Part shown: positions 3,556 through 17,812 of the stretch, piece after piece
Layout of the letters: each line of letters begins with the position of its first letter
How positions within the stretch are numbered: position 1 is the stretch's first letter
From: a virus
Strand: one strand, 5' to 3'
DNA length: 28,258 bases
Virus record (IMG/VR): IMGVR_UViG_3300024503_000549
Coordinates: 1-28,258 of that record
Notes under the pieces: model-generated
The model's input: the letters and a program-made list of their open reading frames with translations, nothing else
Told to the model about the DNA's origin: nothing
Databases searched by the model: none
Translations under genes and position numbers: made by a program

Positions 3556-3576
3556 CCCGTCATCAGTGACTGAACA
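3548..3576 (-). promoter_or_regulatory. Leftward helicase promoter overlapping the rightward promoter
   Basis: On the minus strand a consensus TATAAT (3553-3548) lies 17 bases from TGTTCA (3576-3571), a poor -35 match. The spacer holds the palindrome GTCA-TCAG-TGAC (3559-3570). The weak -35 suggests that it depends on, or is tuned by, a regulator. Confidence 0.45.
3558..3572. promoter_or_regulatory. Operator-like palindrome GTCA-N4-TGAC at the divergent promoter
   Basis: GTCA (3559-3562) and TGAC (3567-3570) flank TCAG, a member of the recurrent set. It sits in the spacer of the leftward promoter and just after the rightward -10 box, a position from which one protein could repress or switch both directions. 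Confidence 0.6.
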
Positions 3577-8120: not shown

Positions 8121-8534
8121 ATGACTGAAGAAATGAAAGTAGATGAAGCGGCTGCGGGATTTCCCACCCCACGGGAAGTCGAAGAGCTGGCCCTCACAGT
8201 GGATGCTCAGATCATGAAGCTGCTCGGGCTTCGGTTCGAGATTCAGGACGACATCATCAAGGTCTGGGCTCCGGAGGTGGAAACGCCCGACGAGACCAAC
8301 TGGATGTTCGGTGAGCGGTTCTCCTGCAACCTGGCCGAATCCATGAACGTGCTTGACGGGCTCAAGGTCGAGGTCGAGTTCTTCGAGGAAGACGGCTGGC
8401 ATTGGGCTCGTGTGGTGTTCGGTGAAGAAGGCGAGCTCGAGACGGCCGAAGCGCCAAGCAAGGAGTTGGCCGGCGCATTCGCGTGCTGTGCGGCATTGTT
8501 TGGCCGATCCGGAGGTAAGTCATGTGTGACTTGA
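8121..8534 (+). CDS. Small acidic phage protein, possible ABA-sandwich domain
   Basis: A 137-residue acidic protein. The segment from about residue 70 on (FSCNLAESMNVLDGLKVEV, then WHWARVVFG, and AGAFACCAALFG near the end) fits the short alpha-beta sandwich often called the phage ABA-sandwich domain in phage proteins of unknown function. ATG 8121 follows the TATATATATAAGTAAT leader and the ribosome site is weak. Its last codons overlap the operator AAGTCATGTGTGACTT and the -35 TTGACA of the next promoter, so the coding end is constrained by regulatory DNA. No enzyme motif is visible. Confidence 0.55.
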   Translation: MTEEMKVDEAAAGFPTPREVEELALTVDAQIMKLLGLRFEIQDDIIKVWAPEVETPDETNWMFGERFSCNLAESMNVLDGLKVEVEFFEEDGWHWARVVFGEEGELETAEAPSKELAGAFACCAALFGRSGGKSCVT

Positions 8535-8559: not shown

Positions 8560-8614
8560 CGCCCAGAATTCAAGGCTATCTCCTCTGGGCGTCTTCTCCA
8601 CGCCCATTTTTTTT
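8560..8614 (+). terminator. Terminator with overlapping alternative hairpin (attenuator-like)
   Basis: TGGGCGT/ACGCCCA (8586-8592 with 8600-8606) forms a 7-bp stem with T8 after it (8607-8614), a good intrinsic terminator. The 5-prime arm CGCCCAGA (8560-8567) can instead pair perfectly with TCTGGGCG (8584-8591), which removes the terminator arm. The predicted start point (about 8566) lies inside that alternative arm, so only readthrough RNA from upstream contains it. This suggests readthrough transcripts escape and promoter-started ones terminate early, or that the structures act with another factor. Confidence 0.6.
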
Positions 8615-10526: not shown

Positions 10527-10555
10527 TTGACTAAGTCACAACTGACGTATAAGAT
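10527..10555 (+). promoter_or_regulatory. Promoter with operator in the spacer, upstream of portal
   Basis: TTGACT (10527-10532) and TAAGAT (10550-10555) are 17 bases apart; TATAAG at 10548-10553 is an alternative -10. The spacer contains AAGTCACAACTGACGT (10533-10548), the same CAAC-centred operator form as at 14203 and 18690. An in-frame TTG here is part of the -35 box, not a gene start. Confidence 0.6.
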
Positions 10556-13156: not shown

Positions 13157-13158
13157 TA

Positions 13159-13224
13159 CTAAGTCACCGATGACTTGCATTTTTCCACAAATTGTGGTAT
13201 AGTGCTGCCTCATCGGTGACTTAG
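13159..13224 (+). promoter_or_regulatory. Capsid promoter inside a 15-bp perfect inverted repeat
   Basis: TTGCAT (13175-13180) and TATAGT (13198-13203) have a 17-base spacer that contains a 13-base palindrome CCACAAATTGTGG (13185-13197). It is bracketed by perfect inverted arms CTAAGTCACCGATGA (13159-13173) and its complement (13210-13224), 36 bases apart. The left arm is part of the operator AAGTCACCGATGACTT, which overlaps the -35 box. This could be a strong, doubly regulated promoter for the major capsid gene. Confidence 0.75.
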
Positions 13225-13276
13225 AGCGACGTAAGGGCCGAGACATTGACAACCTCCCCTGGAAAGGATTCATCAA

Positions 13277-14188
13277 ATGGCTCTCCTGCGCCAAGAAGCT
13301 GAAAAGCTGAGCAACAACCAGCTCATCTCCGGCGTGATCGACCAGATCATCGACCGTGACGACCTCATGGCCGTGCTGCCCTTCGTGGGCGTGAACGGCA
13401 AGGCCTATGTGTACAACCGCGAAAACACCCTGGGTGGTGCATCGTGGCTCGACCCGAACGAAGCGATTGGCGAAAGCGCCGCTACGTTCACCGAAGTCGT
13501 GGCCAAGCTGCGTATCCTGGCTGGCGACGTGGATGTGGACAAGTTCCTGCAAACCACCATGGGCGACACCAACGACCAGATGGCGATCCAGATCGCCAAG
13601 AAGGCCAAGGCTGTCTCTCGTGAATTCCATCGCACCATGGCTCGCGGCGACGCTACCGCCAACACGAAGGAATTCGACGGTCTGCCCGCTCTGGCTGCTG
13701 CTGCTGGCGGCACCCAGACCGTGACTGCCGGCGCCAACGGCAACGCCCTGACCCTGACCATGCTCGACGAACTCGTTGACAGCGTGCCCAACGGTCCTGA
13801 CGTGATCGTGATGCGTCGCGGCACCATCCGCGCCTTCCGTGCTCTTCTGCGCGCCACTTACGGCACCGACGCCGTGATGCAGCAGCTCGAGAATTTTGGC
13901 CGCCCCATGCTGACTCACAACGGCATTCCGGTCATCATGAACGAGTTCCTGGCCGCTGACGAAGCCCAAGGCTCCAACGCCAACACCTGCTCCGTGTACG
14001 CTCTGCGTCTGAACGAGCTGGATGGTCTGCACGGCCTGTATGGCGGCGACAACGCCGGCATCGTGGTCGAGAACATCGGCACCGTTCAGAACAAGGATGC
14101 CACCCGCATCCGTCTGAAGTGGTACACCGGCATGGCCCTGAAGAGCACCCGCTCCATCGGCCGCCTGAAGGGTGTGTCCAACATCTGA
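13277..14188 (+). CDS. Major capsid protein
   Basis: A 303-residue protein, the shell subunit. Size, position after the scaffold, own strong promoter and clean Shine-Dalgarno (GGAAAGG before ATG 13277) fit a major capsid gene. The sequence has an N-terminal helix (LLRQEAEKLSNNQLISG), an acidic-aromatic loop around NRENTLGGASWL, then a beta-rich middle and TVQNKDATRIRLKWYTGMAL near the C-terminus, as in HK97-fold coat proteins. Frequent CTG, AAC and CGT codons suit high expression. No delta-domain or protease-cleaved leader is obvious. I judge the coat call strong, exact fold subfamily unproved. Confidence 0.85.
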   Translation: MALLRQEAEKLSNNQLISGVIDQIIDRDDLMAVLPFVGVNGKAYVYNRENTLGGASWLDPNEAIGESAATFTEVVAKLRILAGDVDVDKFLQTTMGDTNDQMAIQIAKKAKAVSREFHRTMARGDATANTKEFDGLPALAAAAGGTQTVTAGANGNALTLTMLDELVDSVPNGPDVIVMRRGTIRAFRALLRATYGTDAVMQQLENFGRPMLTHNGIPVIMNEFLAADEAQGSNANTCSVYALRLNELDGLHGLYGGDNAGIVVENIGTVQNKDATRIRLKWYTGMALKSTRSIGRLKGVSNI

Positions 14189-14194
14189 TCGGTG

Positions 14195-14223
14195 TTGGCA
14201 GTCAGTCACAACTGACGTACAAT
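14195..14223 (+). promoter_or_regulatory. Promoter fused to the capsid-gene terminator
   Basis: TTGGCA (14195-14200) and TACAAT (14218-14223) are 17 bases apart, with the operator form GTCA-CAAC-TGAC (14205-14216) in the spacer. The -10 ends one base before the terminator stem, so the predicted start (about 14230) is inside it. Confidence 0.65.
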
Positions 14224-14254
14224 AAGGGCAAGCTCAAAAGGCTTGCCCTTTTTT
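14224..14254 (+). terminator. Terminator downstream of the major capsid gene
   Basis: AAGGGCAAGC/GCTTGCCCTT, a perfect 10-bp stem with a 7-base loop, leads into T6 and more T-rich sequence. It stops readthrough from the capsid gene, while RNAs started at the overlapping promoter lack most of the left arm and should escape. Confidence 0.85.
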
Positions 14255-17723: not shown

Positions 17724-17786
17724 TGGACATTTTGCCGCATTTGTGGTAGAGTGCCGGCACCGGCGAAGTCATTAAGCAGTGACTTC
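17724..17786 (+). promoter_or_regulatory. Major tail promoter, sister of the capsid promoter, with downstream inverted repeat
   Basis: TGGACA (17724-17729) and TAGAGT (17747-17752) are 17 bases apart. Spacer and -10 region match the capsid promoter (TTTT, then TTGTGG directly before the -10, and AGTGC after it). Downstream are a hairpin GCCGG-CA-CCGGC (17753-17764) and an inverted repeat GAAGTCA/TGACTTC with an 8-base gap (17765-17786), a wider-spaced variant of the operator. It drives the major tail protein gene. Confidence 0.65.
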
Positions 17787-17812
17787 AATCCCCTTTGCAA
17801 AGGAGCTTTCGA

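Follow-up and report, generated by a model that had tools for sequence, protein, structure and literature searches.

A phage-plasmid capsid promoter probably controlled directly by a master repressor with dispersed operators, and a likely leader RNA hairpin in its transcript

The repressor C1 of the phage-plasmid P1 has 22 target operators, scattered along the genome (PMC8546580). The stoperators of L5-type phages are asymmetric 13-mers, which are bound by a monomer, are oriented with transcription and lie partly outside promoters (PMC9283540). A C1-type repressor has been reported for a Roseobacter phage-plasmid, the main text being silent on operators (PMC10090143). Here we describe the capsid promoter of a 28,258-base viral contig, the whole of which was analysed and is called the window below. 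A search of the open-licence literature gave no description of the AGTCA-N4-TGACT operator family or of the AGNGAC leader found at this promoter. In our reading, which we hold with good though not full confidence from sequence comparison, a sigma-70-type capsid promoter is directly controlled by a phage-plasmid master repressor, with a separate capsid transcription unit, a leader hairpin and pairing in read-through RNA.

SSU5/nickie-type phages and Acinetobacter phage-plasmids carry genes similar to the capsid, portal, large terminase, scaffold, ParB-like and helicase genes of the window. The near-complete relatives span 99–118 kb and the window is therefore a fragment. The first-pass annotation had assigned the promoter to a major capsid gene, and the matches of the gene at 13277–14188 (plus strand, 303 aa) to the SU10_MCP / GP7 families and to annotated MCP homologues bear this out. 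This gene is preceded by a Shine-Dalgarno-like GGAAAGGA at 13261–13268 and followed by an intrinsic terminator at 14226–14254 (both plus strand), a hairpin of −18.1 kcal/mol and then a U run. The promoter TTGCAT-17-TATAGT lies on the plus strand where it had been placed, with the −35 box TTGCAT at 13175–13180 (TTGACA/TTGCNN in relatives), a 17-nt spacer and the −10 box TATAGT at 13198–13203, within an extended −10, TGTGG-TATAGT (13193–13203), which is conserved in A1. The three symmetric elements described around it are also present: a dyad over the −35 box, AAGTCACCGATGACTT at 13161–13176; a 13-bp palindrome in the spacer, CCACAAATTGTGG at 13185–13197 (plus strand); and inverted arms at 13159–13173 and 13210–13224 (plus strand), which are complementary at 15/15 positions and 36 nt apart. 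The left arm includes most of the dyad, while the right arm would form the 5′ end of the capsid mRNA, the start site being predicted only. The spacer palindrome is an inner hairpin centred near −20, with TGTGG from the extended −10 as its right half. The inner self-complementarity of the spacer is retained with different sequence in many relatives; as a sequence-specific site the palindrome was rejected, since its sequence is retained in the closest relatives only. An intrinsic terminator at 13159–13224 was rejected as well, there being no U run and AGCGACGTAAGG following directly after the right arm.

The left dyad (O1, AAGTCA-CCGA-TGACTT, a putative repressor operator conserved at the MCP gene of relatives) is one copy of a dispersed operator, AGTCA-N4-TGACT. 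At up to three mismatches, seven copies of the dyad occur in the window against 0.3 expected, a count matched in 0 of 100 shuffles. The other copies had gone unnoticed in the first-pass annotation, as had the genome-wide recurrence in relatives. A perfect one at 8517–8532 overlaps the −35 box before a small-terminase-like gene in the same register as O1, those at 10533–10548 and 14203–14218 fall in promoter spacers before the portal gene and directly after the capsid gene, respectively, and that at 3557–3572 sits at about +3 of the ParB-like gene promoter. In six complete, related phage-plasmid genomes of ~110 kb, perfect copies number 10–33 per genome against 0–0.2 expected, and copies with at most one mismatch number 38–48 against 2–4 expected. 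Most of the sites are intergenic (183 intergenic sites at ≤1 mismatch in the six relatives), and, relative to predicted start sites, the operators are concentrated around centre positions −41, −18 to −23 and +2 to +10. Copies above chance, placed where they would block predicted promoters, are what a dispersed-operator prophage repressor regulon would show. In the 3.8-Mb genome of Magnetospirillum molischianum, 19 of 19 perfect operators lie on the phage-plasmid contig that also encodes a repressor homologue. G011 has few operators, nickie, SSU5 and BUCTxx99 have no perfect ones, and pAba10324c carries a different dispersed dyad, AGTAAGNNCTTACT, likewise over the capsid −35 box.

A weaker putative operator (O2, GCCTCA-TCGG-TGACTT, 13207–13222) lies near +4 and is an inverted copy of O1, centre included. 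In the window it is off consensus at 2 of 10 contact positions; several relatives carry a perfect or one-mismatch operator in its place. If transcription starts at 13210, the centre of O1 is at −41.5. As hypotheses, the suggestions of an operator over the −35 box and of two regulator dimers at the promoter have good support: both arms match the dispersed operator (−41.5 and about +4), and relatives encode a matching repressor family. A helically phased clamp and protein looping of the arms to present or hide the promoter were rejected, because the spacing of the arm centres varies from 44 to 52 bp among relatives.

The candidate repressor was traced from the Cro/C1-type HTH gene of pAba10324c (L146:6059-6478), which has single homologues in 6/6 complete relatives, so that each of these combines the operators with a matching HTH protein. 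With a profile built from seven members, a homologue turns up in almost all near-complete records that carry operators, and two in G006. The profile finds no homologue in nickie, SSU5 and BUCTxx99, nor in G011 or the incomplete operator-bearing records G014 and G015, and the gene was not found in the window, an incomplete fragment. The seven members (139–150 aa) match HTH families only and the S24 peptidase domain is absent. A LexA/CI-type self-cleaving repressor was rejected on this ground, and induction would require a route other than self-cleavage. The best PDB match of the profile is the mycobacteriophage immunity repressor 8bny (E 8.5e-5), with 434 Cro also among the nearest. Operator sequence and presumed recognition helix vary together: KPN[VI][IL]TM goes with AAGTCAC sites, KPNMLSM and TPNMVSM occur in genomes with ACAGTCA and ATAGTCA sites, and the diverged homologue of pAba10324c has QNMVSF. 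Given this parallel change, sequence could serve to predict immunity groups. In L119 (G004) and L132 (G007), a stretched form of the operator, AGTCA-N15-TGACT, which exceeds the N4 form by 11 bp, was observed in the presumed promoter of the repressor gene.

It is very likely, judged from these comparisons, that the repressor controls the capsid promoter. We infer that a small Cro/C1-type (HTH_3) protein of about 140–150 aa, with no detectable protease domain, would act as master repressor of a temperate phage-plasmid and bind AAGTCA-N4-TGACTT, presumably as a dimer. With O1 over the −35 box of the sigma-70-type promoter and the inverted, weaker O2 at the predicted start site, bound repressor would keep RNA polymerase off, and the same protein may silence some 25–40 further promoters of the element. 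Upon derepression the capsid gene would be transcribed as its own unit from promoter to terminator, and the mRNA would begin with a conserved AGNGAC hairpin, the right arm being its 5′ strand. Read-through transcripts from the terminase-portal-scaffold genes would also include the left arm, which could pair with the right arm together with the promoter segment and hide the leader hairpin.

The leader hairpin had been missed in the first-pass annotation. The right arm is at once the weaker operator and the 5′ strand of a covarying hairpin with the hexaloop AGNGAC, located on the plus strand at 13213–13241 in the 5′ UTR of the capsid mRNA (UCGG..CUUAG-[AGCGAC]-GUAAG..CCGA). In capsid relatives the sequence 3′ of the −10 box, ATCGGTGACTTAGAGCGACTTAGGCCCGA, ranks with the best-conserved stretches of the region. 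With the alignment register set by the invariant loop, the covariation of the inner stem is 0.386 against 0.195 ± 0.034 (0/500 shuffles), and changes on both sides are found at 4 of 5 pairs, the stem variants being CUUA/UAAG, CUA/UAG, GCAA/UUGC and CUUA-AGUGAC-UAAG. The motif occurs once per genome, at the capsid gene only, in the sequences of relatives searched, and it persists where the operator type changes, as in L045 and L021. The genomes of nickie, SSU5 and BUCTxx99 have upstream gaps too short for a comparison of the leader and were dropped from it. No Rfam family matches it; a known RNA family was rejected, the sole weak match in the window being AgvB at 1631–1721, below the gathering score. 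The covariation suggests that the leader RNA is likely real.

Most relatives retain the arms rather than losing them beside a conserved promoter core, and in 28 of 37 distinct relatives at least 10 of 12 arm positions pair. The L045/L046/L054 and L021 lineages have lost the pairing, with operator and leader retained. As to whether the arms are more than two overlapping features, three sequence-based observations say yes. The first concerns L067, L070 and L083, which have no AGTCA dyads in the available sequence and a left arm with no other close copies there; their arms differ in sequence and still pair (14/14 in L083), that is, the arms have changed together in a lineage lacking the operator family. 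The second concerns the N4 of O1, which varies elsewhere: in 15 of 29 relatives all of it is complementary to the leader, whereas the N4 of other operators would predict 3.3. This result becomes weak after collapse to unique centre pairs (p = 0.03 and 0.002), and all p-values in these comparisons of arms and folding are optimistic since the relatives are not independent of one another. The third is an excess of inverted over direct operator pairs, taken up below with template switching.

These observations could mean that the arms were selected for pairing in RNA, a selection that we regard as plausible. A long hairpin across the promoter in read-through RNA might keep messages apart, acting for instance as an RNase III site or a stabiliser of 3′ ends, or might hide the leader; it would supplement repression and not replace it. 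We give this possibility somewhat less than an even chance. As RNA, the 70 nt at 13157–13226 fold at −37.1 kcal/mol (z = −9.4). Of 28 diverged relatives, 15 have a self-complementary promoter segment in the 34 nt between the arms (nominal p < 0.05 each); among 17 control promoters the number is 2 (Mann-Whitney p = 6e-4). The folding excess of the segment lies mainly on the transcript strand. This favours selection on a read-through RNA that contains the promoter over a cruciform. The operator prefers C..G at its centre edges, and thus G-U versus A-C changes in the arms alone could not separate RNA from DNA; a folding-strand test was used in place of that comparison. The shared extended −10 could add to the strand bias, though the bias persists when the −10 side is fixed and the spacer alone is shuffled (z+ −1.34, z− −0.53, difference p = 8e-4). 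Against selection for pairing stand its absence in the L045-type and L021 lineages and the presumed nature of the read-through transcripts, and template switching could equally yield matched arms.

According to that second explanation, template switching at a quasi-palindrome copies an operator in inverted form into its neighbour, and the matched arms are a mutational by-product with no selection for pairing. Among operators 14–75 bp apart at all promoters, many of them unrelated, the non-contacted N4 is shared inverted 12 times and directly 0 times (p = 1e-9), while distant pairs match at 0.7%; 4 of the 12 inverted pairs belong to the capsid site. In L154 the arms reach 22 nt, with a match of the flanks that extends past the operator, and the capsid promoter of M. 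molischianum, which lacks the leader, has 22-nt arms with 95% complementarity. Template switching explains the general excess of inverted copies and is a serious rival for the arms, for which we consider it a tentative possibility. Alone, it leaves the folded promoter segment and the strand bias unexplained, and arms pair in the lineage whose left arm has no other dyad copies in the available sequence. The excess also qualifies the view that such dense symmetry is unusual at one promoter: inverted operator pairs recur at other promoters, but the covarying leader and folded promoter segment are found, among the promoters examined, at the capsid gene only. The strongest form of RNA selection, in which one DNA stretch would serve as promoter, paired operators and an RNA switch sorting transcripts by origin, with an active leader confined to capsid mRNA begun at the promoter, appears rather unlikely to us. 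If true, mRNA starting at the promoter would fold the AGNGAC leader and read-through RNA would fold the promoter into a long stem that sequesters it.

O1 could also be a class II site for a late-gene activator instead of an operator. Its centre at −41.5 is the classical class II position, a site there would look identical at the capsid promoter alone, and P1 late promoters require the activator Lpa (PMC8546580). Nevertheless, in the same genomes the same dyad lies within spacers (−20) and downstream of start sites (+5), many of these promoters have near-consensus boxes, and the mixed positions fit a repressor that excludes polymerase, not an activator, which is why we deem this reading improbable. 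Extrusion of the arms into a DNA cruciform, by which the promoter would be hidden or presented, the model of the first-pass annotation, has in its favour the perfect arms and the good folding of a 91-nt stretch as single-stranded DNA (z = −5.9) in the structure prediction which that annotation had proposed, but is very improbable, as a cruciform needs equal folding of both strands whereas the transcript strand folds better than composition predicts, pointing to RNA, and as arm pairs tolerate G-U.

Besides the repressor-controlled capsid promoter, some further features were observed. In L125 (G001), two perfect operators (4682 and 4775) flank the entire capsid-gene leader, one of them between leader and start codon. 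In the window, an operator and promoter lie immediately 5′ of the capsid terminator (14203–14254); a transcript from there would end after ~30 nt, barring read-through of the terminator. At 17731–17790 another promoter shares the TGTGGTAGAGTGC −10 region, with a dyad AAGTCA-N8-TGACTT just downstream, and relatives have an N4 operator at the apparent counterpart of this site. TATAAGGATT is present in four perfect copies, at 133, 257, 1601 and 3541 (0.19 expected at ≤1 mismatch), the last two of which adjoin predicted promoters; CTTATA stretches resembling it occur near operators in relatives, and it is possibly a second regulatory site. The leader before the small-terminase-like gene (8560–8614) contains a CGCCCAGA...TCTGGGCG hairpin of −13.2 kcal/mol, whose right half could instead take ACGCCC, which precedes eight consecutive T, as its pairing partner; the arrangement resembles an attenuator.

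A widespread phage-plasmid group, which includes Acinetobacter elements, thereby gains a candidate immunity repressor together with the operator and a list of targets, none of these components being described in the open-licence papers searched. The AGNGAC leader would add to Rfam an RNA motif of capsid mRNA that is missing from it, and, since inverted operator pairs outnumber direct ones, a mutational origin of new operators becomes testable.

Among described systems, P1 C1 shares with the present one the phage-plasmid setting and the genome-dispersed operators. However, the P1 operators are an asymmetric 17-mer, ATTGCTCTAATAAATTT (consensus PMC8546580), in place of the palindrome AGTCA-N4-TGACT with variable N4, and a P1 C1 system was rejected for this reason; moreover, the late genes of P1 are controlled via the activator Lpa, whereas here the operators sit on the capsid promoter itself. 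Cluster A mycobacteriophages (L5/TipsytheTRex) are similar in having >20 sites per genome and in supplying the best PDB match, 8bny. The sites here are instead palindromic and lie over promoters, and an L5-type stoperator system was rejected because the site is a palindrome with a variable centre, not an asymmetric one in a single orientation. With phage 434 Cro and lambda-type CI the candidate repressor shares the HTH_3 Cro/C1-type DNA-binding domain, but control is genome-wide as opposed to two-operator, and an S24 protease domain is not found. SSU5, nickie and BUCTxx99 are homologous in the capsid gene and the head genes next to it, and nickie and BUCTxx99 share the ParB-like and helicase genes as well; all three differ in having neither perfect operators nor a repressor homologue, and only about 27–70 bp before the capsid gene. 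The Acinetobacter phage-plasmid pAba10324c has a homologous capsid gene, a repressor homologue, an operator over the capsid −35 box and the same leader hairpin (AGAGAG loop), and differs in the operator sequence, AGTAAGNNCTTACT.
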